A stretch of DNA of 61,889 bases, from positions 1 to 61,889 of the forward strand of contig JAKAKK010000085.1 of NCBI GenBank assembly GCA_021813525.1, in the 5' to 3' direction. The translations under genes and the position numbers were made by a program. Position 1 is the stretch's first letter, and the number at the start of each line of letters is the position of its first letter. Below are positions 36,369 through 51,326 of the stretch, one piece after another. Origin of the DNA: a bacterium. GTDB taxonomy: Bacteria > SZUA-79 > Acidulodesulfobacterales > Acidulodesulfobacteraceae. A model generated the notes under the pieces. The model was not told the DNA's origin and ran no database searches. It saw nothing but the letters and a program-made list of their open reading frames with translations.

Positions 36369-37838
36369 ATGGTACAGGAATTGAATAAGATAAAAATTTT
36401 TGCTTTAAATATTTGGAAGCAATTTATTGATGTTTCCATAAGAATTAAATTAATCGGGCTTACTATGCTTACAAGTCTTTTTTTAGGAATTATAATTTCA
36501 TATTTTATGTTATCTTTTTATAACGGGGAAATTTCCCATGATGCGCAGTATATGAGCATGGTTATAGGAAGACATATTTCTGAAGCTTCTGTAAATTTTA
36601 TTACCGGCGGTAATTATAATAAACTTAATATATTACTAAAGAATGAAGTTAAAAACAATAAAAATATTCTTTATATATTTTACTTAAATAGTAGAGGAGC
36701 CGTCACTGCCCATGCTTTTCATAAAGGCTTTTACCTTAATATCGTGGGTAATATTCTGAAAAAGAATAACAGCCAAAATAAATTATATATCGTTAAATAT
36801 AATAATGAAATATACGGGAAAATTTTAGATACGTCGTTTCCGGTATCTAAAGGCCGGTTGGGAACAGTAAGAGTCGGGATATCCATAGACCGTATGAAAG
36901 ACTCTTTCTTCTCGCAGGAATCCCCGCTTTTTTTTAAAAATATTGTTTTGATTTTAATATCCAGTTTCATTTTTATTTACTTAATATTTAAGATTATAGC
37001 GTGGTGGTTTTTAACTCCGGTAGTCAAGCTTTATGAAGCCACCGAAAAAATAAAAGCAGGGGATTACAATGTTCATACGGCCGCTAAAGGATATGACGAA
37101 ATAGGAAAACTTTCGAATTCTTTTAACGAAATGGCTTTAATATTAAAAGAAGCCGAGCAGGAGAGGGCTAAAAATGAAGATTTGAGAAAAGATTTTATAA
37201 AAAAAATTATTAATGCTCAGGAAGAAGAAAGAAGGAAATTGTCCAGAAGTTTACACGACAGATTTGGACAGTTTTTATCCTCTTTAAAAATAAAGCTCAG
37301 AATGCTTGACGATTATAAAGATGTAGTTGAAGTAAAAAACAAAATTCAACAAATAAGGGATAATCTGACTGAAGGTTTCAATCTCGTTCACGCCATGGCT
37401 AAAAACCTAAGACCAAGCATGCTTGACGAGGTCGGGTTGATTAATGCCGTAAAGCAATATGTCTCAGACGTCGTTAAAAATAATCCTGCCATAAAAATAG
37501 ATTTTTATCACATTAATTTTTTAGAAGACTACGGGTTAGATAAGAATATAGAGGTCAATATATACAGAATAATTCAGGAATCGGTATTGAATGTTATCAG
37601 CCATGCCTGTGCTGATTCCGTTACGATAATTTTAGAAAGATACGAAGGTAAAATTAGGGGCATTATAGAAGATAATGGAAAGGGTTTCGGATGCTGCGGA
37701 GAGGATGATTACGAGCATCTCGGAATAGACGGCATGAAAGAGAGGGCTAAATTGTTCGGTGGAGAGCTGACCGTCGAATCCGAAAAAAATTTAGGGACGG
37801 TAGTAAAATTTTATATTCCGGATATTAATAATGAATAA
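36369..37838 (+). CDS. Membrane sensor histidine kinase, NarX/DegS-like (HisKA_3)
   Basis: A 489-residue kinase with membrane helices at about 25-50 and 190-215. Between them is a periplasmic sensor of about 140 residues without cysteine clusters or a recognised domain. A HAMP domain (about 213-265) follows, then a HisKA_3 dimerisation domain with phospho-acceptor H296 in SRSLHDRFGQ, and a HATPase domain with IIEDNGKGFG. It is 16 bases upstream of a NarL-type regulator and next to cytochrome genes, so it probably senses a redox or electron-acceptor signal controlling them. The ligand is unknown. Confidence 0.9.
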   Translation: MVQELNKIKIFALNIWKQFIDVSIRIKLIGLTMLTSLFLGIIISYFMLSFYNGEISHDAQYMSMVIGRHISEASVNFITGGNYNKLNILLKNEVKNNKNILYIFYLNSRGAVTAHAFHKGFYLNIVGNILKKNNSQNKLYIVKYNNEIYGKILDTSFPVSKGRLGTVRVGISIDRMKDSFFSQESPLFFKNIVLILISSFIFIYLIFKIIAWWFLTPVVKLYEATEKIKAGDYNVHTAAKGYDEIGKLSNSFNEMALILKEAEQERAKNEDLRKDFIKKIINAQEEERRKLSRSLHDRFGQFLSSLKIKLRMLDDYKDVVEVKNKIQQIRDNLTEGFNLVHAMAKNLRPSMLDEVGLINAVKQYVSDVVKNNPAIKIDFYHINFLEDYGLDKNIEVNIYRIIQESVLNVISHACADSVTIILERYEGKIRGIIEDNGKGFGCCGEDDYEHLGIDGMKERAKLFGGELTVESEKNLGTVVKFYIPDINNE

Positions 37839-37854
37839 AGAAGAGGCATAGAAA

Positions 37855-38511
37855 ATGATAACGGTTGTATTAGTCGATGACCATTCTATACTGCTTGCGA
37901 CTTTAAAGATATTTTTGGATACTCAGGAAGACATCAACGTTGCAGGAACGTCGAATGACGCCCTGCGCGCCGTCGAACTTATAAAAACGAAAACTCCCGA
38001 TGTCGTTTTGCTTGACATATCTATGCCGAAAATAAACGGAATTGATTTAATACCGAAAATAAAAAAAGTTTCGCCAAACACAAAAATACTAATGCTGACT
38101 ATGTTCGAAGACAAGCAGTATATGCAAAAAGTTCTTGAAGCAGGAGCATCAGGCTTTTTAGTAAAAAAAGCCATGGATTACGATTTAGTCTATGCGATAA
38201 AAACCGTTGCGAGGGGAGAAACATATATCCATCCGTCGATGCTCGAAGATTTTATGGCAAGTAAAAATAACGGCTCGGCCGACATTCTCAGCAGGGAAGA
38301 AACATTATGGGAAGCTTTAAGCAAACGCGAAAAAGAGGTTATGGTCGGGGTTGCGCAGGGTTTTACAAATAAAGAAATTGCCGAGAAGCACTTTTTGAGC
38401 GAGAAAACTGTTGCTACGTACCGCTCGAGAGGAATGGAAAAGCTTGGTTTTTCAAGCAAATCTCAACTTATCGATTTGGTTTATTTCAAACTTAAAATTT
38501 TAAAAAAATAA
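37855..38511 (+). CDS. NarL/FixJ-family response regulator (cognate of the upstream kinase)
   Basis: A 218-residue regulator with an N-terminal receiver domain: acidic pocket D8-D9, phospho-acceptor D54 in LLDISMP, and conserved Lys in GFLVKKA. A LuxR-type helix-turn-helix (about 150-215, SKREKEVMVGVAQGFTNKEIA) follows. It is partner to the HisKA_3 kinase 16 bases upstream. A closely related orphan regulator lies at 49758-50420. Candidate binding sites are the three conserved upstream motifs at 38538, 39947 and 50437, the first beginning 27 bases after this gene. Confidence 0.93.
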   Translation: MITVVLVDDHSILLATLKIFLDTQEDINVAGTSNDALRAVELIKTKTPDVVLLDISMPKINGIDLIPKIKKVSPNTKILMLTMFEDKQYMQKVLEAGASGFLVKKAMDYDLVYAIKTVARGETYIHPSMLEDFMASKNNGSADILSREETLWEALSKREKEVMVGVAQGFTNKEIAEKHFLSEKTVATYRSRGMEKLGFSSKSQLIDLVYFKLKILKK

Positions 38512-38585: not shown

Positions 38586-38669
38586 ATTTTAAAACTTCTC
38601 ATTATATATTAGATTTAAGCTATGGAAATAATTTATTTTTATAACTTAAAATTAAAGGAGGAATTTAAA

Positions 38670-39008
38670 ATGAAAAGATATAAAATAACGGCTTTAATTT
38701 TTTCGATTTTTTTGTTCGTTTTTTTTATTTACGGCAATGCGCCGGCGCTGGCGCAAACGTCAAATTCTGCTAAAGCAATTAAAATTATTAAAGCGAAAGG
38801 GTGTCTGAGCTGTCACGCGTTAAACGGCTCGGGAGGTTCGGTCGGCCCTAATCTTTCTAACGAAGGTTCGAAAGGACACTCGATTCACTGGTTAAAAGTA
38901 CAGATTACAAATCCCGGCAAACATTTTCAGGGGAGCATAATGCCTCAATTTCAATTAAATTCCGCTCAGCTTGAAGAAGTCGCCCTATACCTAGAGTCGC
39001 TAAAATAA
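38670..39008 (+). CDS. Small monoheme cytochrome c (copy 1)
   Basis: A 112-residue periplasmic c-type cytochrome with a signal peptide (about 1-28, ending ALAQ). The single heme motif is CLSCH near residue 45-49, and a candidate axial Met is in IMPQF. The body follows the pattern GG-VGPNLS, WLK-QI-NP-HF, MP, LEEVA-YLESLK that recurs in the other small cytochromes here. ATG 38670 is chosen because AAGGAGG lies at the right distance and the signal peptide then begins correctly. First of three tandem cytochromes after regulatory motif A. Confidence 0.9.
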   Translation: MKRYKITALIFSIFLFVFFIYGNAPALAQTSNSAKAIKIIKAKGCLSCHALNGSGGSVGPNLSNEGSKGHSIHWLKVQITNPGKHFQGSIMPQFQLNSAQLEEVALYLESLK

Positions 39009-39050
39009 AACGAGAAAATTGTATTATTGTTAATAAAGAGGAGAAAAATT

Positions 39051-39401
39051 ATGAAAAGGTTATTTTTGATAATAATTTTTATAATTGCGGCAATAACGGT
39101 AAATCCGTTAGACAGTCATGCGTTTGCAGGCAGACAATTATTCAAAAAAGAGCAGTGCATTTTATGCCATGCCATTAACAAAAAAGGGGGAACGATGGGC
39201 CCTAATCTTTCGTCTATCGGCAAAATCAGGACATATTCATGGATTAAAAGACAGATAAGAAATCCTAAGTTAAATTTTTTTACCCCTAATTCTTTTGTTA
39301 TTTTTAATGGAAGAGTATATGAATCTATCATGCCCGCAAATAAAAAAATAAGCGCAAATAATCTTAACAAACTTGCGCAATATTTAAAATCTCTAAAATA
39401 A
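39051..39401 (+). CDS. Small monoheme cytochrome c (copy 2)
   Basis: A 116-residue exported cytochrome. Signal peptide about 1-25, one heme site CILCH, and the shared core GGTMGPNLSSIG, then WIKRQIRNP and IMPAN with a candidate Met ligand, ending in YLKSLK. AGAGGAG precedes ATG 39051, which I prefer to the upstream ATG at 39027 because it gives a clean signal peptide. It begins 42 bases after copy 1, consistent with one transcript. It probably shuttles electrons in the periplasm. Confidence 0.9.
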   Translation: MKRLFLIIIFIIAAITVNPLDSHAFAGRQLFKKEQCILCHAINKKGGTMGPNLSSIGKIRTYSWIKRQIRNPKLNFFTPNSFVIFNGRVYESIMPANKKISANNLNKLAQYLKSLK

Positions 39402-39462
39402 TCTAGAAGCAAGCGGTTTTAAAAATGTTTAATTTAAATTTAGTTTAAGGAGGCAGATGGAA

Positions 39463-39825
39463 ATGAAGAGGGGCAAAATTATCTTAACGGTAACGTTTTT
39501 ATTTGTTTTTTTCTTTATTTTATGTAAAGGCAATACAGTTTTTGCCATATCTGGGAAGTCGGTTTTTAAATCCAAAGGCTGTATAAACTGCCACGCTATA
39601 AACGGCGTCGGTGGCAAAGCCGGTCCTGACCTAAGCAATATAGGGGCAAGAAAAAGCATTGAATGGTTAAAAGATTTTATTAAAAATCCGGATAGCTACT
39701 TTAATCCGGGAAGCAGTGCTCTTATAAACGGGAAGGAATATATAGTTATGATGCCTTCATTTAAGAATATGATGTCCGAAGGCAAGCTTAATGCGGTAGC
39801 CGGCTACTTAGGGTCGTTGAAGTAA
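39463..39825 (+). CDS. Small monoheme cytochrome c (copy 3)
   Basis: A 120-residue exported cytochrome. Signal peptide about 1-27 (ending TVFA), heme motif CINCH, core GGKAGPDLSNIG, WLKDFIKNP, a GKEYIVMMPSF segment with the Met ligand, and the terminal YLGSLK. I chose ATG 39463, 9 bases after AAGGAGG; ATG 39457 is only 3 bases away from it but cannot be excluded. Last gene of the three-cytochrome unit, followed by a strong terminator. Confidence 0.9.
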   Translation: MKRGKIILTVTFLFVFFFILCKGNTVFAISGKSVFKSKGCINCHAINGVGGKAGPDLSNIGARKSIEWLKDFIKNPDSYFNPGSSALINGKEYIVMMPSFKNMMSEGKLNAVAGYLGSLK

Positions 39826-40132: not shown

Positions 40133-41893
40133 ATGATAATCCCTAAAATTATAACCAGATTATCGATAGCTGCGTTATCGTTTATTATTTGCTTAGTATC
40201 TTGTCCGGCTTTTTCAATTTATGCCAAAAATACGGATACCGCAAAAAATGAACCCGAACCGGTGAATATAAGTAAAGCAGGCAGGAAAGTTTACATCGGT
40301 AACGGCTGTTTCGTCTGCCACGGAGTCCAAAGGCTCGGCAAGTCCGCCCCTCCGCTTATCCCCCAGTTTATCGGAAGACTTCCTTACGATAAACTTGAGA
40401 CTATTATAACAAAAGGTTTGTTTCCCGTGCCTATGCCCGCTTTTAAGAAATTAACGGACAAAGAGTTATCGGAGCTTATAAGCTATCTTAAATCGCCTTC
40501 GCAAAAAGTTCTCTGGAACAAGAACGATATTAAAACCAGTCTCATAAAATACGAAAATACGAAGAAACCGAATATTAAACTCGCAAACGTAAAAAATCTT
40601 ATGGCGGTCGTCGAAGGCGGAACGGGGAAGGTCTGGATAATGACAGGGACGAAAATATTAAATAAATTTGATTTTGGTGATATTCACGGCGGATTAAAAT
40701 ATTCTCCATCGGGAAGGTATTTATATCTTCCATCAAATACAGGTTTCGTAGGCAAGTATGATTTTTATACTAAAGAATTGGCTTATAAAGTTAGAGCCTG
40801 CCGTTATCTAAGGAATATTTCACTCTCGGAAGGCGGAAAATATGTACTTGCTGCCTGCTGGCTTCCAGAGTCTATAGCCGTATTAAATGCAAAAAATCTT
40901 AAACCGGTGAAGGTAATACCTTTAAAGCATAGGATAAGTGTAATTTACGGATTATTTAGAAATAACAAAGCTGCATTTTCTTTTATGCATAAGTCAGTTA
41001 TAGGTATATTGAACACGGATGCCCTAAGCGTAAATTATTACACAATCCCCGTTCCTTTTCAGGATTTTTTCGTAGATCCTTTAGATGAATATGCGGTAGG
41101 AGGTTCTTTTAAAGGAGGAAGACTTTATGTATTCAGTCTTAAGAAAAAAAGAATCGTTTATTCTCATTATTCATACGGGATACCGCATCCGGCGGGTGCA
41201 GCTTTCTGGTTCGATAACGGAAAATTCTATTTTGCCCTTACAAATCTTATAAAACCTTATGTGTCCGTATGGCGTATGTATAACTGGAAATTTATAAAAA
41301 ATATATATACCGGAGGCCCCGGCTTTTTCGTTAAAACTAATCCTTATACTAAATATCTCTGGGTAGATAACAGCTCAGACAATTTAGTTCTTATAAATAA
41401 GTATAATTTTAAAATTAAAAAGCTCGCCGTAAAAAAAGGCGGATTAATTATTCATACCCAGTTTTCCGGAAACGAAAGGCTTGCCTATATTAGCGATTAC
41501 GGAAAAAATGGCGAAATTGCGGTTATAAATACTAATTCATTAAAAATAATTAAGAAAATACCTGCTAACGACGTCATAGGTAAATACAACTATGTAAATT
41601 ATCAAAGAATGAACGATGCCGCTCTTCTGGGAGAAGAGGTTTATTTTGCATATTGCTGGGGATGCCATAATCCTACGCTGGAATCGATAGGCCCTTCGTT
41701 TTCCTATATCGCAACACATTTGAACTCTGCAGGAATCAGGGCTCAATTATCGAAACCGGCGGAATTTTCAAAAAACCTTGGATATAAATATAACGCTATG
41801 CCTAAATTCGACTTAACTAAACATGAAATTAAATCTCTGATAGCTTTTATAAAAGATTCTAGGAATAAAAATTTTTGGAGGTATGGGAACTGA
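40133..41893 (+). CDS. Cytochrome c / d1-type propeller / cytochrome c protein (NirS/NirN-like)
   Basis: A 586-residue exported protein. Signal peptide about 1-31; cytochrome c domain with CFVCH at 59-63 and candidate ligand M101; an eight-bladed propeller (about 150-495) matching heme d1 domains; a second cytochrome c with CWGCH at 508-512 and M556. The d1-axial His appears conserved as H185 in DIHGGLKYSPSGRYLYL. One distal catalytic His is kept (H352 in PHPAGAAF), while the other seems replaced (PFQDFF for PFLHDGG). It therefore probably binds heme d1 but may not be a standard nitrite reductase. First gene of the operon. Confidence 0.82.
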   Translation: MIIPKIITRLSIAALSFIICLVSCPAFSIYAKNTDTAKNEPEPVNISKAGRKVYIGNGCFVCHGVQRLGKSAPPLIPQFIGRLPYDKLETIITKGLFPVPMPAFKKLTDKELSELISYLKSPSQKVLWNKNDIKTSLIKYENTKKPNIKLANVKNLMAVVEGGTGKVWIMTGTKILNKFDFGDIHGGLKYSPSGRYLYLPSNTGFVGKYDFYTKELAYKVRACRYLRNISLSEGGKYVLAACWLPESIAVLNAKNLKPVKVIPLKHRISVIYGLFRNNKAAFSFMHKSVIGILNTDALSVNYYTIPVPFQDFFVDPLDEYAVGGSFKGGRLYVFSLKKKRIVYSHYSYGIPHPAGAAFWFDNGKFYFALTNLIKPYVSVWRMYNWKFIKNIYTGGPGFFVKTNPYTKYLWVDNSSDNLVLINKYNFKIKKLAVKKGGLIIHTQFSGNERLAYISDYGKNGEIAVINTNSLKIIKKIPANDVIGKYNYVNYQRMNDAALLGEEVYFAYCWGCHNPTLESIGPSFSYIATHLNSAGIRAQLSKPAEFSKNLGYKYNAMPKFDLTKHEIKSLIAFIKDSRNKNFWRYGN

Positions 41894-42990
41894 TGCTTAG
41901 GATGACTGATTATATAAGAAAATCACTGGAGTCAAATTCACGTGATGATAAGCATCTTCCGGGAAGAATGGTAATATGGAACATTACCAACGACTGCAAT
42001 CTTTCTTGCGAACATTGTTATTCTTCTTCGGGAAAAAAGGAAAAAGCGTCGGCAATAAAGCCGGAGTATGTGTTATCCGCAGTAAAATCTTTAAAGGCGG
42101 CAAATGTTAAAGCCGTTATACTTTCGGGTGGCGAGCCCCTTATGTCGCCTTATCTTTTCGATATAGCAAAAATTTTTAAAGATGAAGGCTTTGCGGTTAG
42201 TCTTTCTTCAAACGGTACGATGATAAATGAAGAGAATGTCGGCTCTATAAAATCATTGTTTAATTATGTCGGAATAAGTATAGACGGAAGCGAAAAAACC
42301 CATGACGGATTCAGAAAAAAAGAAGGAGCGTATAAAGCTTCCATTAAGTCCTTAAGATTGCTTAAGGACAACGGAATAAACGCCGGTTTAAGAACGTCTC
42401 TTACATCGTATAATTATAGGGATTTAGGATTTATATTTAAGTTAGCCGAAAAAGAAGGGGTAAAAAAAATATATATATCGCATCTTGTTTATTCCGGAAG
42501 AGGCAACAATATATCCGAAATAAATAAATCTATCCATAAAAGAATATCTCTATATATCTCGGGAATGGCATTCAATTATGTCAGAAATGGCATACCTATA
42601 AGCATAGTTACAGGTAACAACGAGCCTGACGCAATTCTTCTTCTCGCAATGTTTAAACGGTTTTATCCAGAATTTTATAAAAATATGCATGACAAAATAT
42701 TAAACTGGGGCGGAAATCAATCCGGCAATAGAATAATAAACATAGATTATTCGGGATTTGTCAAACCGGATCCATTTTTCAAATATAGCGGAGGAAATAT
42801 TAAAGAAAGGGATTTTTTTGAAATAATAAATAACGATAAATTATTTTTGGAATTAAGACAAACTCCTAGAAAACTAAAAGGGAGATGTGAAAAATGCAAT
42901 TATTTAAGAATCTGCAACGGCGGCTCCAGAGCGCGGGCATATGCCGTTTATGGGGATTACTTTCAGGAAGACCCGGCGTGTTTTATGTAG
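41893..42990 (+). CDS. nirJ: NirJ-like radical SAM enzyme (heme d1 biosynthesis type)
   Basis: A 365-residue radical SAM protein with the cluster motif C35-x3-C39-x2-C42 in NDCNLSCEHCYSS and a SAM-binding SGGEPLM segment. A C-terminal cysteine region follows (CEKCNYLRICNGGSRARAYAVYGD then EDPACF), typical of NirJ and the related heme enzymes AhbC/AhbD. NirJ installs the keto groups of heme d1. Position between a d1-type propeller protein and NirF supports NirJ. The ATG overlaps the previous stop as TGATG, so translation is coupled; an in-frame TTG at 41875 is rejected. Confidence 0.82.
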   Translation: MLRMTDYIRKSLESNSRDDKHLPGRMVIWNITNDCNLSCEHCYSSSGKKEKASAIKPEYVLSAVKSLKAANVKAVILSGGEPLMSPYLFDIAKIFKDEGFAVSLSSNGTMINEENVGSIKSLFNYVGISIDGSEKTHDGFRKKEGAYKASIKSLRLLKDNGINAGLRTSLTSYNYRDLGFIFKLAEKEGVKKIYISHLVYSGRGNNISEINKSIHKRISLYISGMAFNYVRNGIPISIVTGNNEPDAILLLAMFKRFYPEFYKNMHDKILNWGGNQSGNRIINIDYSGFVKPDPFFKYSGGNIKERDFFEIINNDKLFLELRQTPRKLKGRCEKCNYLRICNGGSRARAYAVYGDYFQEDPACFM

Positions 42991-44060
42991 TTTTTATTGC
43001 CTTTGCAGCAGTTTTTATTTCCTCCAAAAACGTTTTTGCCGCTAAGTATTACGTAGTGGAAAGGGCGGGCGGCTCTCTCGGCATTATATCGCATAACGGA
43101 TTGGCGGGCAGGGTAAACCCTATAGGAAACGGAACGCACGTCATAGTATATTTCGGAAATCGTTACGGTTACGCCTTGGGCAGGAACGGATATTTATCCA
43201 AAATAGACCCTGAAGCCGATAAAATCATACTGCAAAAAAAGGTATCCGGCGATACGGTCGATTTCTGCCTTTCGAAAAACTTTATAGCCGTTGCAGGTTA
43301 TAAGCCTCAAGACGTAGTAATATTAAATAAAAACTTTAAAGTACTCCATACGATAAAGACGGGTTCGAGAAATATCGGCGCAGAGTTTTATAAAAACTAC
43401 CTAATATTCGAGCTTATGGATAAAGACCGGATATGGATAGTTAATACGAATAATTTTAAAGTCGTAAAAAAAATAAAGCGTATAGGGCATTTTCCCATAG
43501 ACGCATTAGTTTCCGGCAACGATTATATCGCCGCTTTTCTCATAGGCCAAAAGTTCGGGGTATTAAACCTGAAAACCTTTAAATACCATATCGTAAACTA
43601 TGGCAAAAAAGAAAGTTTTCCTCATCAGATACCCCATTACGGCATTTATTCCGTATATGACGGAACGGCTTATATTCCAGCTGCCGGAGAAAAGAAGATA
43701 GTCGAAGTGAATTTAAAGACAGAAAAAGAAACAGGTTCGGTTAGTCTTATCGGATATCCTATTTTTATAATATTTTCTCCGAACCGCAAAACCTTAGCCG
43801 TTAATTACAGCGGTAAAGCGCATGATTATTTAACGCTTATAGATGTAAAAAATATGAAGGTTATAAAAAACATAAAAGCTGGAAGAAGAATTATGTTTAT
43901 GGCTTATTCGGGAAACGGAAAGTTGATTTACGCATCGGATTATTTCGGCAATTCCGTAAACGTCTTTAATGTCCTTACAGGAAAAGAGGTTGCCGCAATT
44001 CCGGTTCCGAGCCCTTCGGGGATATTCAGGGTGCCTTATAAATTATATAAACAGCAATAA
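42978..44060 (+). CDS. nirF: NirF-like heme d1 biosynthesis protein
   Basis: A 360-residue propeller protein resembling NirF along its length. Recognisable parts: VERAGGSLG near the start, H54 in NGTHVIVYFG at the place of the essential NirF His, IGHFPIDAL, IPHYGIYS, AYIPAAG, PIFIIFSPNRKTLAVNY and a final PSPSGIF. NirF is thought to act late in heme d1 formation, in the periplasm. I chose GTG 42978, which has AGGAAG 7 bases upstream and gives a proper signal peptide (about 1-21). It overlaps the NirJ-like gene by 13 bases. Confidence 0.85.
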   Translation: MFYVVFIAFAAVFISSKNVFAAKYYVVERAGGSLGIISHNGLAGRVNPIGNGTHVIVYFGNRYGYALGRNGYLSKIDPEADKIILQKKVSGDTVDFCLSKNFIAVAGYKPQDVVILNKNFKVLHTIKTGSRNIGAEFYKNYLIFELMDKDRIWIVNTNNFKVVKKIKRIGHFPIDALVSGNDYIAAFLIGQKFGVLNLKTFKYHIVNYGKKESFPHQIPHYGIYSVYDGTAYIPAAGEKKIVEVNLKTEKETGSVSLIGYPIFIIFSPNRKTLAVNYSGKAHDYLTLIDVKNMKVIKNIKAGRRIMFMAYSGNGKLIYASDYFGNSVNVFNVLTGKEVAAIPVPSPSGIFRVPYKLYKQQ

Positions 44061-44081: not shown

Positions 44082-45281
44082 ATGAAGAAGAAAGAAGAAA
44101 AGGCAGACGAAGAAGCAATGAAAAATGAAAGAAAAATCGAAAAGACCGGGGCCAGGGATGGAACCGGTAACGTCGTGAAAGATGACGAAATTTCCGGCAG
44201 GAGAAAATTTCTTAAAATGCTCGGACTAGGAGGATTGGCGGCAGGGGCTCTAGGAATACTCGGTTTATCTAATGCAAAAGAAGTTTTAGCCGCTCCGGTA
44301 AAAAAGATTAAAAAAGTAAACGGTGGCGGCGATTTAGATGCGCCCGAAAAAAATACAGGCGTTCCTACCGGACCTTTAAAAAACCACAGGTGGATGAACT
44401 GGATGAATCCGTCCCAGTATATAAAAGACGGATGGGACCGCTGGCAGGATACGATACAGAATCCTCTCCATGCACGGATTTTTCATGATAAGTTTTACAG
44501 GATAAAAAAAATAAGACCTAAAATACATCATTTCGTTTTCGTAATAGATATTAACAAATGCGTAGGATGTCAGGCTTGCGTAGTAAGCTGTAAAAACGAA
44601 AACACCGTTCCGCTTGGGGTTTTCAGAAGGGTCGTAGACGTTATGGAAGTAGGAGAGATGGTTCCCGATGAAAAGGGTTTAGTCGTGACGGACGAAGGGA
44701 ATTTTACTCCCAATGTGAAGAGAGTTTTTCTTCCCAGAACCTGTAATCACTGCGACAATCCGCCGTGCGTCGAGGTCTGTCCGGTGAAAGCGACTTATAA
44801 ATTAGAAACCGGTCAGGTTGAAATAGATTACGACCTGTGCATAGGGTGCCTTACCTGTGTTCAGGCTTGTCCTTACGATATGAGATTTGCAAACCCGATT
44901 CAGCATACTGCTGATAAATGTAATATGTGTGCGGGAAGGGCGTCGGTTTCGCATGAAAAGTCATATGTTCCCCTTTTACCGGTATGCGTTACTTCGTGCG
45001 TCGGAAGGGCGATGAAGTTCGGAGATACGAACGACCCGGAAAGTGAGGTTTCTAAATTAATCGCTACAAACAAGGTTTCAAGATTAAATGTTGGATTCGG
45101 TACTGACCCTCAGGTTTATTATATAGGCTTAGACGGCGACCTTGCGAATTACACTAATCCCGATAAAGTTAAGATGGTTTACACCTACACTATGGGTCTT
45201 ACTACTACTGCTTACGAAAAACTCGGTAAAAAACCGGTTCTTCCCTATTTAGAAGAAAAAGAACGCCCTTATGCAGGTTAA
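44082..45281 (+). CDS. Tat-exported four-cluster ferredoxin subunit (TtrB/PsrB/NrfC-type)
   Basis: A 399-residue electron-transfer subunit. An unusually long charged N-terminal extension precedes the twin-arginine signal GRRKFLKML (R40-R41) and a hydrophobic stretch. Four [4Fe-4S] motifs follow: CVGCQACVVSC, CNHCDNPPCVEVC, CIGCLTCVQAC, and CNMC with VCVTSC. This arrangement marks the iron-sulfur subunit of membrane-bound molybdoenzymes, passing electrons between the NrfD-type anchor and the catalytic subunit. GGGGG precedes the ATG, 21 bases after the NirF-like gene. Confidence 0.93.
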   Translation: MKKKEEKADEEAMKNERKIEKTGARDGTGNVVKDDEISGRRKFLKMLGLGGLAAGALGILGLSNAKEVLAAPVKKIKKVNGGGDLDAPEKNTGVPTGPLKNHRWMNWMNPSQYIKDGWDRWQDTIQNPLHARIFHDKFYRIKKIRPKIHHFVFVIDINKCVGCQACVVSCKNENTVPLGVFRRVVDVMEVGEMVPDEKGLVVTDEGNFTPNVKRVFLPRTCNHCDNPPCVEVCPVKATYKLETGQVEIDYDLCIGCLTCVQACPYDMRFANPIQHTADKCNMCAGRASVSHEKSYVPLLPVCVTSCVGRAMKFGDTNDPESEVSKLIATNKVSRLNVGFGTDPQVYYIGLDGDLANYTNPDKVKMVYTYTMGLTTTAYEKLGKKPVLPYLEEKERPYAG

Positions 45282-45314: not shown

Positions 45315-46535
45315 ATGTTTCAGTATATGAATCCTCTTGCGATTAACGGCTCTTACGGAACGCTGGAAAATGTTTACTGGGGGCTTCCGATAGTGATTTA
45401 TCCGTTTCTTTCCGGTTTAATGGCCGGCGCCTTTGTAGTCGGCGCGCTTTATCATCTTTTTCACATGGAAAAACTTAAACCGATATCTAAGCTGGCGCTT
45501 ATTGCAAGTTTTGCAATGCTTCTGCTTGCGGCAATGGCGCCTTTGGCGGATGCCCTGCAGCCGCAAAGAGCTATGTGGGAATTGTATTTCAGGGACCATT
45601 TTCCATACTCGCCTTTAGCAATGTTTATTATTATATGGACGGCTTTTGTTATCGTAAATATATTCGAAATGTATTTTTTATTCAGAGAAGATAATGTTAA
45701 AAAGGCTAAAGCCGATAGCGGGATAAGAGGAAAAGTGGCAAGGCTCATATCTTTTGGCAGTTCCGATTTGTCGGAGAAAACTAAAAAAAGAGACCATAAA
45801 GCCTTATGGGTAATATCAATTATAGGAATTGTTTTATCCCTTCTCTTTCACGGTTATGTCGGCTTTTTATTTGGCGCCATAAAAGCCAGAGCGCTCTGGT
45901 CGGACCCCGATATTCCGCCGATGTTTATTACGTCCGCCGTTGTTTCAGGCATAGCTTTCGTAGGCCTATTATATACAATCGGTTTTACCTTTTTTTCGGA
46001 TAAAAATAAGGTTGAATCCGATACGCTGGAAGTTCTTAATAAAGCGTTAGTATTTGCAATTTTTGCCGACCTGTTTTTCGACCTCATTGAATGGCTTTAT
46101 TCGGTAAGGGGTTATAATTCGAAAGGAGTTTACGACGGATGGCATGCGGTTTACTCTTATGCCGCAAAAGGTCCTCTCTGGTTTAATTACCATGTAACGC
46201 AGATAGGACTTGGGCTTATTATACCAGCTTTTTTATTTCTGGTATTCAGAAAGATAAGGAGGTCTTTAATCTGGACGGCGATATTAGATTTTATAGTTAC
46301 CGTCGGCGTCTGGGAGATGAGGTACGATACCGTTATAGGCGGTCAGCTTCCGGTTAAAATAGGACAGGGGCTTGCCGTTCTGCATATTCCGTTTTGGGGT
46401 TTTGACGGATATATATCGGGCATAGGAATGTTCGCAATGGGGATTGTAATATTGTTTGTTTTCGGATATTTTTTGGGCTGGGAAGAAAAACCGGAAGAAA
46501 TAACCCCGGATAAAATAAATAAGGAGGCTTTATAA
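45315..46535 (+). CDS. NrfD/PsrC/TtrC-type quinol-interacting membrane subunit
   Basis: A 406-residue polytopic membrane protein of the NrfD/PsrC family with about nine hydrophobic segments. The first has the typical YPFLSGLMAGAFVVGALYH pattern, and LFHGYVGFLFG appears midway. It anchors the complex and exchanges electrons with the quinone pool. AAAGGAG precedes the ATG. Its stop overlaps the catalytic subunit start by one base. The order B-C-A matches that of ttrBCA. Confidence 0.9.
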   Translation: MFQYMNPLAINGSYGTLENVYWGLPIVIYPFLSGLMAGAFVVGALYHLFHMEKLKPISKLALIASFAMLLLAAMAPLADALQPQRAMWELYFRDHFPYSPLAMFIIIWTAFVIVNIFEMYFLFREDNVKKAKADSGIRGKVARLISFGSSDLSEKTKKRDHKALWVISIIGIVLSLLFHGYVGFLFGAIKARALWSDPDIPPMFITSAVVSGIAFVGLLYTIGFTFFSDKNKVESDTLEVLNKALVFAIFADLFFDLIEWLYSVRGYNSKGVYDGWHAVYSYAAKGPLWFNYHVTQIGLGLIIPAFLFLVFRKIRRSLIWTAILDFIVTVGVWEMRYDTVIGGQLPVKIGQGLAVLHIPFWGFDGYISGIGMFAMGIVILFVFGYFLGWEEKPEEITPDKINKEAL

Positions 46536-49500
46536 TGGCAAAGAATAAAATGAATAGAAGGGACTTTTTAAAATATACGACGTTTGGGGTAACAGCTGTT
46601 GCGACGGGAGCGGGATTGACGCAGTGGGCTGGAGGGGTGTTCGGCTATCAGGGCAAATATACTTTTCCGCGCAGGCCCGAAACATGGCCTGGCGAGCTTG
46701 TGCAGTATTCTACCTGCAAGCAGTGCCACAGCGATTGTGGAATAATGGCGAGGACTTTTAACGGAACCCTCCTGAATATTTTCGGCAATCCTTACGATAT
46801 ACAGACTACGGAACCTAATATAAAATATTCCACTCCTGTGAAAGATTCAATAATATATACCGGAACGTATTATTCGCCGGACAAGCCGTTTGTTGACGGG
46901 GCGCATTCCGTATGTCCAAGAGGCGCGGCAGGAACTCAGACGGTTTACGACCCTTACAGGGTATATATGCCGTTAAAGAGAGTTGGAGAGAGAGGTTCCG
47001 GAAAATTTAAAGCGATATCATACAAACAGTTGATAGATGAAACGGTAAACGGAGGATATTTATTTAAAGACATGCCCGGCGAAGAAAAAAGATTCGTAGA
47101 AGGTTTTAAGCATTTATGGAACGACGGGAAAAACCGTTTTATTCCGGCAAACCCAAAATATCCTGATTTCGGACCTAAGACTAACCAGTATGTTTCTTAT
47201 TGGGGCAGGGGGGAAGGAGGCATAGCAAATTTTATGACGCGGTTTGCAAACGCTCTGGGTTCCGTAAATGCATTGCCCCATGTTTCAATTTGCGATTTAT
47301 CTCATCACGTTTCTACATTCAGGACTTTTCCCGGAACTAACATGTTAAAGCCCGACCTTCCCAACTGCGAACACCTGCTGATTTTCGGAGCAAATTATCT
47401 TGAAGCAAATTTTCCTATGCAGACTTTAGCCAGAAGAACGGTATCCGCTACATCGTCCGGTAAGTTAAAAGTAACGGTAATAGACGTAAGGGCGGGTAAC
47501 ATGGTTGCCCATGCCGATAAATACATTCCAATTAAACCCGGAGGCGATGGGGCTTTAGCTATGGGCATGCTGAGGTGGATAATAGAAAACAAAAGGTATG
47601 ACGAAAATTTCCTGGCTAATTTAAGCCTTGGCTCGGCAAACGCAAACGGCGAACCTAATTTTTCAAACGCTTCATATCTTGTAGTTGCCGATAAAAGCAA
47701 TGCGGATTTTGCCAAATTCTTAAAGAGCGGAGAATCGTTTTACGCGATAGACAAGGTAACAGGAAAACCTGTTTTAACGTCTGACGCCGCAAAAGGCGAT
47801 TTATGGCCTACCGGATTTTTATCTTTAACCCCTATTAACGTGAACGGCATCGACTGTATGACGAGTATGCAGATGCTCTGGAGCGAGCTTAAAAAACATA
47901 CTATAGAAGAATATGCAAAGGAAGCCGGTCTTGCCCATATGGTAATACCGGAACTTGCAAAAGATTTTACTTCGCACGGCAAAAAAGCCGTTGCAGATTA
48001 CTATAGGGGTCCCGTAAAACATACTAACGGATTTTATAACGGCAGGGCAATACAATTTTTAAACGTTATGATAGGCAATATAAACTGGCAGGGGGGGTAT
48101 ATCAACGGGGGAGGCAGTACCGACGTTATGGGAGGCGACGGTTATCCTTATGATTTAGGTAAATGGCCAGGTTTTGTTCCGGCAAAAGGGGTAAAGATTT
48201 CAAGAGAAGGCTCATATTATGAAGATACGTTAGAATATAAGGAAAAGGTTGCAAGGGGCGAGTCGCCTTTTCCAGCGCAAAGACCTTGGTTCCCTTTCGG
48301 TTTCGGCATCTGGCAGGAGATATGGGGAGGAACGTATTTCCAGTACCCTTATCCTGTAAAGATAATGCTTCAACAGGAGGCGAATCCCGCATGGTCTATG
48401 CCTGCTATGGGCGGCGTGAACGATGAATCCAAGCCGTGGATGAGGATGGTAAAAGATACAAGCAAAGTTCCGTTATTCATAGCATCGGATTGTTATATTT
48501 CGGAAAGTTCGGCATACGCCGATTATATCGTCCCCGATACGACATACTTAGAGGGCTGGGGATTTTTGGGAAACCTTCCGACCTATCCCACGGCAAGAAC
48601 ATCGATAAGACAGCCGATAGTAGAGCCCATGACCGAAAAAACTCAGGACGGAAGACCTATCTGTATTGAAAATTTCCTGATAGATGTTGCAAAGTCTCTT
48701 AAGCTTCCCGGATTCGGTGAGAATGCATTTCTCGAAGGCGGCAATTTAAACGAAAGGGAAGATTACTATCTTAAAATGGCGGCAAATATTGCTTACGATT
48801 CAAAAACTTATTTAAAAAAGAAGGGAAGCGGATTTATCCATTTAGGACCGGTTCCTGACGCAAACAAGGACGAGATGCAGTATGTAAAAAATTATATAAG
48901 AAAACACGGCAAGGCTCTTAAACCTGCGGAATGGAAAAAGACCGCATACGTGATAGCTAGAGGCGGACGTTTCGAAGACTATGACGTCGGTTATCTTCCA
49001 TGGGGAAAACCGAAGTGGGTAACGCATCTCTGGTCGCCGGATACCCCGGTTCATTTATATAACGAACAGGTAGCTACGACGCATAACGCGATATCGGGCG
49101 AAAGGTTCTGCGGAACGACGATATTGCTGCCCCATAGAAATATGAAAGGCGAGATTTTAGATAAGATATATTCAAGAAAGGAATACCCCTTAATGGTTTC
49201 AACCCACAGACAGCCTATCCATTCTAAGTCCAGGACAATGGCCGACCCGTGGCTGCAGGAACTTCTTCCGGACGCTTTCTGGGAGATAGGTGCAATAGAC
49301 GCGAAAAAGCTGAATTTGGCCGACGGGGATACGATAAAAGTAATATCGCCTACTTATCCGAAGGGTATCACTCATAAGGTAAGGATAATGCCTTCAGTGA
49401 GGCCCGGCGTAATTACCGCGGCAACCGCGTTCGGCAGATGGCTTTACGGTTCGGGCGAATGGTACATAGACGGAAAGAAATATACGGGCGACCCCGCAAG

Positions 49501-49642
49501 AAACGTTGGAGTGCATCCTAACGCCCTGTTCCTGCTGGATGATTCGATAGCGGCTAAAGACGGCTGGACGACAAACTTAACCGACCCCGTAGGAGGCTCT
49601 ATGGTTTATTACTATGCGCCTGTTAAGATAGAAAAGGTGTGA
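46535..49642 (+). CDS. Molybdopterin oxidoreductase catalytic subunit (Ttr/Arr/Psr-like)
   Basis: A 1035-residue Tat-exported (NRRDFLK) DMSO-reductase-family enzyme. The proximal [4Fe-4S] site is C61-x2-C64-x3-C68 and C127 in SVCPRGAAG, followed by VYDPYRVYMPLKRVGERGSGKF. The Mo ligand is probably C253 in HVSICDLSHH. Large size, the RVGERGSGKF segment and the B-C-A gene order point to the tetrathionate, arsenate, selenate or polysulfide reductase group. The exact substrate cannot be read from sequence. It ends the operon that begins with the cd1-like gene. Confidence 0.88.
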   Translation: MAKNKMNRRDFLKYTTFGVTAVATGAGLTQWAGGVFGYQGKYTFPRRPETWPGELVQYSTCKQCHSDCGIMARTFNGTLLNIFGNPYDIQTTEPNIKYSTPVKDSIIYTGTYYSPDKPFVDGAHSVCPRGAAGTQTVYDPYRVYMPLKRVGERGSGKFKAISYKQLIDETVNGGYLFKDMPGEEKRFVEGFKHLWNDGKNRFIPANPKYPDFGPKTNQYVSYWGRGEGGIANFMTRFANALGSVNALPHVSICDLSHHVSTFRTFPGTNMLKPDLPNCEHLLIFGANYLEANFPMQTLARRTVSATSSGKLKVTVIDVRAGNMVAHADKYIPIKPGGDGALAMGMLRWIIENKRYDENFLANLSLGSANANGEPNFSNASYLVVADKSNADFAKFLKSGESFYAIDKVTGKPVLTSDAAKGDLWPTGFLSLTPINVNGIDCMTSMQMLWSELKKHTIEEYAKEAGLAHMVIPELAKDFTSHGKKAVADYYRGPVKHTNGFYNGRAIQFLNVMIGNINWQGGYINGGGSTDVMGGDGYPYDLGKWPGFVPAKGVKISREGSYYEDTLEYKEKVARGESPFPAQRPWFPFGFGIWQEIWGGTYFQYPYPVKIMLQQEANPAWSMPAMGGVNDESKPWMRMVKDTSKVPLFIASDCYISESSAYADYIVPDTTYLEGWGFLGNLPTYPTARTSIRQPIVEPMTEKTQDGRPICIENFLIDVAKSLKLPGFGENAFLEGGNLNEREDYYLKMAANIAYDSKTYLKKKGSGFIHLGPVPDANKDEMQYVKNYIRKHGKALKPAEWKKTAYVIARGGRFEDYDVGYLPWGKPKWVTHLWSPDTPVHLYNEQVATTHNAISGERFCGTTILLPHRNMKGEILDKIYSRKEYPLMVSTHRQPIHSKSRTMADPWLQELLPDAFWEIGAIDAKKLNLADGDTIKVISPTYPKGITHKVRIMPSVRPGVITAATAFGRWLYGSGEWYIDGKKYTGDPARNVGVHPNALFLLDDSIAAKDGWTTNLTDPVGGSMVYYYAPVKIEKV

Positions 49643-49757: not shown

Positions 49758-50420
49758 ATGATAACCGTAGCCATAGTCGATGAACATTTTATTTTACTTT
49801 CTGCGTTAAATGTTTTGCTTAACAGCCAGGATGATATAAAAGTAATAGGAACAGCGGGCGATTCGGGATCAGCCGTTGAACTTATAAAGTTAGAAACTCC
49901 GGATGTTATCCTTCTCGATATATCTATGTTAGAAATGAACGGATTTGCCTTAATCCCAAGGTTTAAAAAAATATCTCCTGAATCAAAAATATTAATTATG
50001 ACGATAAACGGGGACGGCAGATGCCTTCAAAAGGGTTTCGAACTGGGCGTTTCCGGTTTCTTAGTAAAAAAAGCGATGGATTATGATTTGATATATGCAA
50101 TCAGAACAGTTGCAAGAGGAGAAAAATATATATATCCCTCAATGGTCGAAGGTTATATGATGAGCAATAATCAGTCCGAAATCCGGGACGGTAAATTAAG
50201 CAAAGAAGAATTTTTATGGAACAGATTAAGCAATAGGGAACAGGAGGTAATAATAGATATTGCGCACGGGTTTAAAAATAAAGAAATTGCCAAAAAGCGT
50301 TTTTTGAGCGAGAAAACGGTTGAAACATATCGTTTAAGAGGAATGGGAAAATTAGGCCTTAAAAAAAAATCGGACCTTGTAAACTTTGTTATATTAAAAC
50401 TTAAAATTTTAAAGCAATAA
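49758..50420 (+). CDS. Orphan NarL/FixJ-family response regulator
   Basis: A 220-residue regulator closely related to the one at 37855-38511 over both domains (shared KKAMDYDL, TVARGE, NKEIA, FLSEKTVETY and LKLKILK segments). Phospho-acceptor D54 is present, but the acidic pocket reads D8-E9 rather than D8-D9, and the segment after the conserved Thr differs. No kinase gene is adjacent. AAGGCGG precedes the ATG. Regulatory motif C starts 16 bases after its stop, mirroring the arrangement at the first regulator. It may share or modulate the same targets. Confidence 0.9.
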   Translation: MITVAIVDEHFILLSALNVLLNSQDDIKVIGTAGDSGSAVELIKLETPDVILLDISMLEMNGFALIPRFKKISPESKILIMTINGDGRCLQKGFELGVSGFLVKKAMDYDLIYAIRTVARGEKYIYPSMVEGYMMSNNQSEIRDGKLSKEEFLWNRLSNREQEVIIDIAHGFKNKEIAKKRFLSEKTVETYRLRGMGKLGLKKKSDLVNFVILKLKILKQ

Positions 50421-50436
50421 TTTTATAGGTTTTTTT

Positions 50437-50483
50437 CCTACATGATTTTATAAATTTTCCTTACAAAAATCAGTATTTATCCT
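50437..50483 (+). promoter_or_regulatory. Conserved regulatory motif, copy C
   Basis: The third copy: CCTAC, a 19-base spacer, TTACAAAAATCAG and TTTATCCT, preceded by AGGTTTTT as in copy B. It lies about 185 bases before the diheme cytochrome gene, with TATAAT near 50509 as a possible -10. Confidence 0.65.
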
Positions 50484-50552
50484 GCATAAATTGAAGATAA
50501 TAGGCAATATAATTTTAATAAAGAATTAAGTTATACATCTTGGCGGTACATT

Positions 50553-50605
50553 AAATTATCTCTCCCTTTCTTGAGGAACCCCCCTTTAGCGGGGAGAGAT
50601 AATTT
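50553..50605. other. Long hairpin in the leader of the diheme cytochrome gene
   Basis: A 14-bp perfect outer stem (AAATTATCTCTCCC / GGGAGAGATAATTT) encloses a C-rich then G-rich inner region (CCCC-TTTAGC-GGGG) that could extend the structure. It ends about 60 bases before ATG 50667, as does the GC hairpin at 40051 before its gene. Role unknown. Confidence 0.55.
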
Positions 50606-50666
50606 TAAATGCAAACGGTGTAAATTAAATAATTATTGTGTTAGTAAAAATTAAGGAGGAACAAAA

Positions 50667-51326
50667 ATGAAAAAGTATATTTTTATTGCAGCTTTTTGTT
50701 TTGCGGTTGTTTTTTTCATTTCATCTAATTTTGCTTTTGCAGCGGCATCCGGCCCAAAACTTTTTAAAAAATATTACTGTATCGATTGCCATACTATAGG
50801 GCATGAAGGCGGGACGGTCGGACCAGACCTTTCAAACATTGGGAGGACTAAAAGCCTGCCATGGATTAAGGCGCAAATATTCCATCCCGGAAGTCATTTT
50901 ATAAGGGGAACTAAAGCAAAAATAAACGGGAAAGTTTATCTTGTTAGAATGCCAGGTTTCAAGACTATTCCTAATTCGGCCGCAAATAAACTGGCTGAAT
51001 ATATTAAGACGTTTCCGTCCGTAAGGTCAAATTTAAGCTATAAAAGACCGCCTGAGGGAATGAGGCTTTTTGAAAAAGATAACTGTATCGCCTGTCATCG
51101 CATAGACGGGATAGGCGCAAAAGTCGGTCCAAACCTTTCTCGTATCGGAAAGACTAAAAGTCTGACATGGATCGAATCCCAGATAGTTGACCCTAAGGTT
51201 CATTTTACATACGGCGTTCCTGCGACCATCAACGGGCGCACTTATCTTGTGATAATGCCGGAATTTAAGCATATTCACGCATCTCAGCTTAATACGATAG
51301 CAAGATATCTCAAGTCGCTGAAATAA
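50667..51326 (+). CDS. Diheme cytochrome c (tandem duplicate of the small cytochrome)
   Basis: A 219-residue exported protein with a signal peptide (about 1-26) and two similar domains, each about 90 residues. Domain 1 has CIDCH and domain 2 CIACH. Both carry GxxVGPdLS/NLS-xIG, SLxWI-xQI, a GxxYLVxMP segment with the Met ligand, and an Ala/Asn-rich C-terminal helix. The domains match the three monoheme cytochromes at 38670-39825, so this is an internal duplication. AAGGAGG precedes the ATG. Likely a periplasmic electron carrier of the same respiratory module. Confidence 0.92.
   Translation: MKKYIFIAAFCFAVVFFISSNFAFAAASGPKLFKKYYCIDCHTIGHEGGTVGPDLSNIGRTKSLPWIKAQIFHPGSHFIRGTKAKINGKVYLVRMPGFKTIPNSAANKLAEYIKTFPSVRSNLSYKRPPEGMRLFEKDNCIACHRIDGIGAKVGPNLSRIGKTKSLTWIESQIVDPKVHFTYGVPATINGRTYLVIMPEFKHIHASQLNTIARYLKSLK

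Follow-up and report, generated by a model that had tools for sequence, protein, structure and literature searches.

Gene organization of the locus

The stretch of DNA analysed here (the window) comprises 61,889 nucleotides, and the features of the operon and its upstream genes given coordinates below lie on its forward (+) strand. The central gene, cd1c (40133..41893), has an ATG start and encodes a protein of 586 amino acids in which a d1-type propeller is flanked by two cytochrome c domains; the open reading frame, the Pfam domains and the match to NirN (6rtd) together define it as a NirN-type protein. Upstream, open reading frames for a histidine kinase and a response regulator (36369..38511), which are kept in most related loci, are followed by three small mono-heme cytochromes c (38622..39825; open reading frames and Pfam matches), whose number varies between genomes. 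Downstream lie a gene for a NirJ-like radical SAM protein (41875..42990), the start of which is perhaps located slightly further downstream, and a gene for a NirF-like propeller (42894..44060; match to NirF 6tv2, 4.1e-30), which overlaps the NirJ-like gene and whose start is uncertain. The operon then continues with an Fe-S subunit of the TtrB/NrfC/DsrO type (44082..45281; profile match), an NrfD-like membrane subunit (45315..46535; PF03916, 122.7 bits) and a TtrA-like molybdopterin subunit of 1035 amino acids (46535..49642; profile match to the TtrA model), which we named MoA.

All eleven loci compared, from ten further genomes, have their genes arranged as cd1c-NirJ-NirF-FeS-NrfD-MoA (L007 and L048 lie on the same contig, and the contig of L041 ends inside MoA). 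The order nirN-nirJ-nirF is shared with the Kuenenia nir cluster, nirS-nirC-nirN-nirJ-nirF (PMC6423088). However, the Kuenenia cluster also has nirS and nirC, which are absent here, whereas the cd1c operon continues into the FeS-NrfD-MoA genes. In most of the d1-linked loci the molybdopterin complex is followed by genes for a response regulator of the LuxR type and a conserved protein of 219 amino acids (49758-51326 in the window).

Domain architecture of cd1c and its relationship to NirN

The N-terminal cytochrome c domain of cd1c (40274..40495) contains C59, C62, H63 and M101, and the C-terminal one (41615..41890) contains C508, C511, H512 and M556; both stretches match PF13442/PF00034. The propeller between them (40574..41599) scores 141 bits against the Pfam Cytochrom_D1 model, for which the cut-off is 25.5. 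These assignments were compared across ten distinct homologous sequences, including that of the window, which are 66-77% identical to the window protein. Both CxxCH sites are invariant in this set, as is one methionine in each c domain (M101 and M556), and these methionines can be considered candidate sixth ligands of the c hemes. Because the c-d1-c layout and the key residues are invariant in all ten sequences, they are not due to chance. The initial annotation, which had assigned the two heme c sites together with H185 and H352 of the propeller, was thus correct, and each of these residues is found in 10/10 homologues. A structure prediction with AlphaFold, made from a two-sequence alignment, reached a pLDDT of 37.8 and was left unused.

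The same annotation had proposed that the second c domain distinguishes the protein from NirS and NirN, and this was borne out, since no NirS or NirN among the references has the C-terminal domain. The nearest relatives of the N-terminal c domain are the N-terminal domains of NirN. The C-terminal domain was also considered as a fused NirC, for which its sequence, not being NirC-like, gave no support. Two c domains in one d1 protein are also found in the Chloroflexi C1-C2-NirS protein (PMC8756737); there, however, both c domains come before the propeller in the sequence, and the d1 portion belongs to NirS. The C-terminal cytochrome c fused to a NirN-type protein is a new architecture.

NirN is a periplasmic dehydrogenase that converts dihydro-heme d1 to heme d1, a green cofactor of which NirS is the sole known user. 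Search, profile and identity comparisons place cd1c nearest to NirN. A phmmer search with cd1c matched Pseudomonas aeruginosa NirN (6rtd) with E=1.4e-55 and NirS with about 1e-14; the cd1c family profile gave 7.3e-58 for NirN and 2.5e-19 for NirS, and profile-profile comparison with hhalign gave 2.8e-53 against six NirN and 8.7e-20 against six NirS sequences. The mean identity of the propeller is 28.5% to NirN, 21.2% to NirS and 19.2% to NirF. In the 40 alignment columns that are fixed differently in NirS and NirN, cd1c agrees with NirN in 16 and with NirS in 4, agrees with neither in 8 and is variable in 12. In the phylogenetic tree, cd1c, NirN and NirS form separate, well-supported clades with no settled branching order among them, and the branches of cd1c and NirS are equally long. 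With a cytochrome c domain at its N terminus, a d1 propeller after it and NirN as the nearest sequence, cd1c is classified from these comparisons as a NirN-type protein that has long diverged.

Residues of the heme pocket

Alignment with the references allowed the pocket of cd1c to be compared position by position. For NirN we assumed that the chain position in 6rtd minus 34 gives the published numbering, and we took H147 to be the proximal ligand, H323 the distal one, and H417 and Y461 to be located next to the reaction site, the three histidines (147, 323 and 417) being those that NirN needs. H185 of cd1c (40685..40687) occupies the proximal position (NirN H147, NirS H182), which is invariant in all the NirS, NirN, NirF, cd1c and NirF-like sequences aligned. 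H352 (41186..41188) occupies the distal position (NirN H323, NirS H369), H441 (41453..41455) that of NirN H417, which is Q in 5/6 NirS, and Y485 (41585..41587) that of NirN Y461, which is F in NirS and NirF; the last three are conserved in 10/10 cd1c sequences. All the residues reported to be essential in NirN (H185, H352 and H441, together with Y485) are therefore kept in every cd1c.

The initial annotation had also pointed to the motif PFQDFF in place of the NirS motif PFLHDGG. The alignment confirmed this position: Q310 (41060..41062) corresponds to NirS His327, and the residue is Q in nine and K in one of the ten cd1c sequences, whereas NirS has H here and NirN has D. The proposed novelty of this loss did not stand, since NirN also lacks the NirS His327 and a non-histidine residue here is the normal NirN state. 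For the same reason, and because NirN is its nearest relative, the interpretation of cd1c as a NirS that has lost a histidine was discarded. Nor did the alignment recover the full set of NirS catalytic residues: NirS has both distal histidines, His327 and His369, whereas the first of them and Arg372 are replaced in 10/10 cd1c. In comparison with NirS, cd1c thus shares the cytochrome c and d1 propeller, the proximal histidine and one distal histidine, at 21% identity, but has neither the second distal histidine nor Arg372. It shares with NirN of P. aeruginosa (PDB 6RTD/6RTE), at about 28% identity, the N-terminal c domain and propeller, the proximal and distal histidines, the third histidine, the tyrosine and the absence of His327; it differs in the extra C-terminal c domain, a lost Arg-Asp pair, a genome that has no detectable NirS and the link to a molybdopterin complex.

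These comparisons bear on the possibility that cd1c stands in for NirS as a nitrite reductase whose distal side is arranged differently. The fold, the presence of heme d1 branch genes and the common distal histidine (H352, NirS His369) would agree with such a function. Nevertheless, the replacement of His327 and Arg372 in every homologue, the much closer similarity to NirN and an operon that leads into a TtrA-like complex, not into nor or nos genes, make it very improbable, and we do not regard cd1c as a NirS-type nitrite reductase.

The one marked departure from NirN within the pocket is N202-T203 (40736..40741). In all 17 NirS, NirN and NirF references this position is an invariant Arg-Asp pair, whereas it is N/T-T in 10/10 cd1c. 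According to its alignment position, the lost arginine appears to correspond to NirS Arg198, one of the arginines contacting the d1 side chains (PMC7278500). The ligand of cd1c, or the hold on its carboxylates, may differ from those of the references. The missing pair, together with the two c domains and the adjoining molybdopterin complex, could also mean that the propeller holds no catalytic d1 heme, and that cd1c is a c-type electron carrier or scaffold of that complex or binds another tetrapyrrole. We consider this improbable, because the proximal and distal histidines as well as H441 and Y485 are invariant in 10/10 sequences, and because NirJ and NirF, for which a heme-free propeller would have no need, are kept alongside cd1c in every case.

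The NirJ-like and NirF-like proteins

The NirJ-like protein scores 358 bits against TIGR04051, which is below the cut-off of 515 bits and yet makes this the best-scoring family (AhbC, 230 bits), and it is 37-38% identical to the NirJ references. The assignment of this gene as AhbC was rejected, since nearly all these genomes also have distinct AhbC/AhbD-like genes.

The NirF-like protein groups with NirF in the tree with 100/100 support and keeps the proximal histidine, so that both its grouping and this residue assign it to NirF. The residues essential in NirF are two histidines, one arginine and one lysine. The histidine of the LHMEF motif is F in 10/10 of the NirF-like sequences; the lysine preceding MPH is also changed, to Q, in 10/10. 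Considering the loss of this histidine and lysine, the chemistry of the NirF-like protein may differ from that of NirF. By sequence comparison, no clear NirC was found among the small c proteins or in the C-terminal domain of cd1c, and it is possible that the small upstream cytochromes c are the partners that act in the NirC role. Taken from the sequence assignments, the operon is predicted to hold the heme d1-specific branch of the pathway (NirJ-like, NirF-like and NirN-type proteins).

Distribution of cd1c and apparent absence of NirS

The survey covered 30 genomes of the phylum, all belonging to one family. cd1c is present in 11/30, and a high-identity NirJ copy occurs in exactly these 11 genomes. 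In the Cytochrom_D1 search of all 30 genomes, cd1c and the NirF-like protein were the only d1-type proteins, and no NirS was found in the 11 cd1c-bearing genomes, whereas positive-control records gave about 490-515 bits for NirS. The other matches were partial, to repeats; one of them, in G000 (contig C56, 484 aa), was read as a candidate hidden NirS and proved to be a repeat protein of the YVTN type that has no heme c site. Six of the cd1c-bearing genomes have completeness estimates of 91-100% (100, 99, 99, 96, 92 and 91%), which makes a gap an improbable reason for the missing NirS. No cd1c homologue was found in 213 genomes of three other phyla, which may have no d1 proteins at all.

AhbAB was matched in 26/30 genomes, including 10/11 of those bearing cd1c, where it lies outside the operon; no match was found in the cd1c-bearing G008, which is 96% complete. 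At one such locus (L073; G000 contig C5, 5529-6299) AhbA and AhbB are apparently fused, with two PF17805 domains in one 334-aa frame, and a frame of the same kind is observed in the other genomes with an AhbAB match.

Alternatively, cd1c could be a pure biosynthesis enzyme, namely a NirN dihydro-heme d1 dehydrogenase with a fused cytochrome as electron exit. The recipient of its heme d1, or of a variant, would then be a protein that has escaped recognition; it might belong to the molybdopterin complex or be a propeller that has diverged beyond the reach of Cytochrom_D1. The retention of all the NirN-essential residues, the biosynthesis genes next to cd1c and the suitability of a cytochrome acceptor for a dehydrogenase are consistent with this role. 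We nevertheless regard it as unlikely, although a serious candidate, because no acceptor protein appeared in the Cytochrom_D1 search and because the divergence of cd1c along its branch equals that of NirS, beyond what would be expected of a plain orthologue.

The adjoining molybdopterin complex

The complex encoded next to the d1 genes has molybdopterin, Fe-S and NrfD-like subunits in common with the tetrathionate reductase TtrABC, but its scores fall well short of the curated cut-offs for TtrA and TtrB; MoA reaches 561 bits against the TtrA model, for which the curated cut-off is 1750, and is assigned by this match to the same broad family as TtrA. FeS-NrfD-MoA genes without d1 genes are found in the cd1c-negative genomes G007 (where the contig ends inside FeS), G013, G016 and G027, and a further d1-free operon, cut by a contig end, is present in G019. 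G000 (contig C90, L066) and G022 (contig C20, L067) have a d1-free second copy and thus hold both forms; the d1-free loci are L066, L067 and L068-L072. Both forms are mixed in the tree of 15 MoA sequences, on which the d1-linked label has to change at least three times; it thus appears that the d1 cassette was acquired or lost repeatedly next to one type of complex. Related complexes that occur without d1 genes do not need the d1 protein as a subunit, which suggests that the cassette is an add-on altering the use of the complex.

Proposed pathway and role of cd1c

In denitrifiers, the pathway proceeds from siroheme through NirDLGH, NirJ, NirF/NirC and NirN to heme d1, which is then delivered to NirS (PMC13168839). 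In the cd1c-bearing genomes AhbAB would take the place of NirDLGH and convert siroheme to didecarboxysiroheme, the NirJ substrate, from which the NirJ-like protein would remove two propionates. The NirF-like protein and a small cytochrome c, which may stand in for NirC, would introduce the keto groups, and cd1c, if it has kept the dehydrogenase activity of NirN, would form the acrylate to yield heme d1 or a close variant. Because no NirS was seen to receive heme d1, we infer that cd1c may retain the cofactor and itself serve a periplasmic electron chain as the d1-dependent oxidoreductase, with the extra C-terminal cytochrome connecting the d1 site and the Fe-S/NrfD/molybdopterin complex that the operon also encodes.

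This reading, in which cd1c shares a root with NirN, the operon and AhbAB make a d1-type heme, and cd1c keeps and uses it in connection with the molybdopterin complex, is the one that we tentatively favour, with a slightly less than even chance of being right. It is consistent with NirN being by far the closest solved relative and the closest profile, with the retention of all the residues reported as essential in NirN (according to the roles assumed above), with the adjoining NirJ-like and NirF-like genes and the restriction of the NirJ copy to the 11 cd1c genomes, with the constant gene order and the AhbAB matches in ten of these genomes, and with a NirS search that was negative while its controls scored highly. 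The lost Arg-Asp pair, the missing LHMEF histidine of the NirF-like protein, the lack of a clear NirC, the genome without an AhbAB match (G008) and the related complexes without d1 genes argue against it.

The initial annotation had suggested a new electron-transfer or catalytic role other than nitrite reduction. Its view that the protein is not of the NirS kind holds, whereas the lost histidine, being the NirN state, provides no basis for a new role. Such a role is plausible on other grounds: the operon with NirJ and NirF, the lack of a detected NirS, the fixed link to the molybdopterin complex and the lost Arg-Asp pair. Heme d1 has been described as confined to cytochrome cd1 (PMC6054029). 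A conserved d1 assembly cassette in bacteria where no NirS could be detected speaks for a second use of the cofactor, and there is a reasonable case for a heme d1-type cofactor outside nitrite reduction. Its more specific form, a c-d1-c protein in a dsrA-bearing phylum that would serve as a terminal or electron-linking enzyme for a TtrA-like respiratory complex and might carry a cofactor differing in a side chain, we hold to be possible, at somewhat below even chances. No report of such a system was found in the literature searched, which was limited in coverage. AhbAB, NirJ, NirF and the NirN-type protein also form a naturally small set with which to test which steps suffice for heme d1.

With regard to dsrA, it was matched in 12/13 genomes tested, in 11 of them above the curated cut-off. 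The dsr genes, the MAG records and a phylum made up of one family would be compatible with Ca. Acidulodesulfobacteriota (compare PMC6776010). The match in G000 (contig C23, 22832-23992) crosses one in-frame TAG, and one of the two full-length dsrA copies of G008 also crosses an in-frame TAG.
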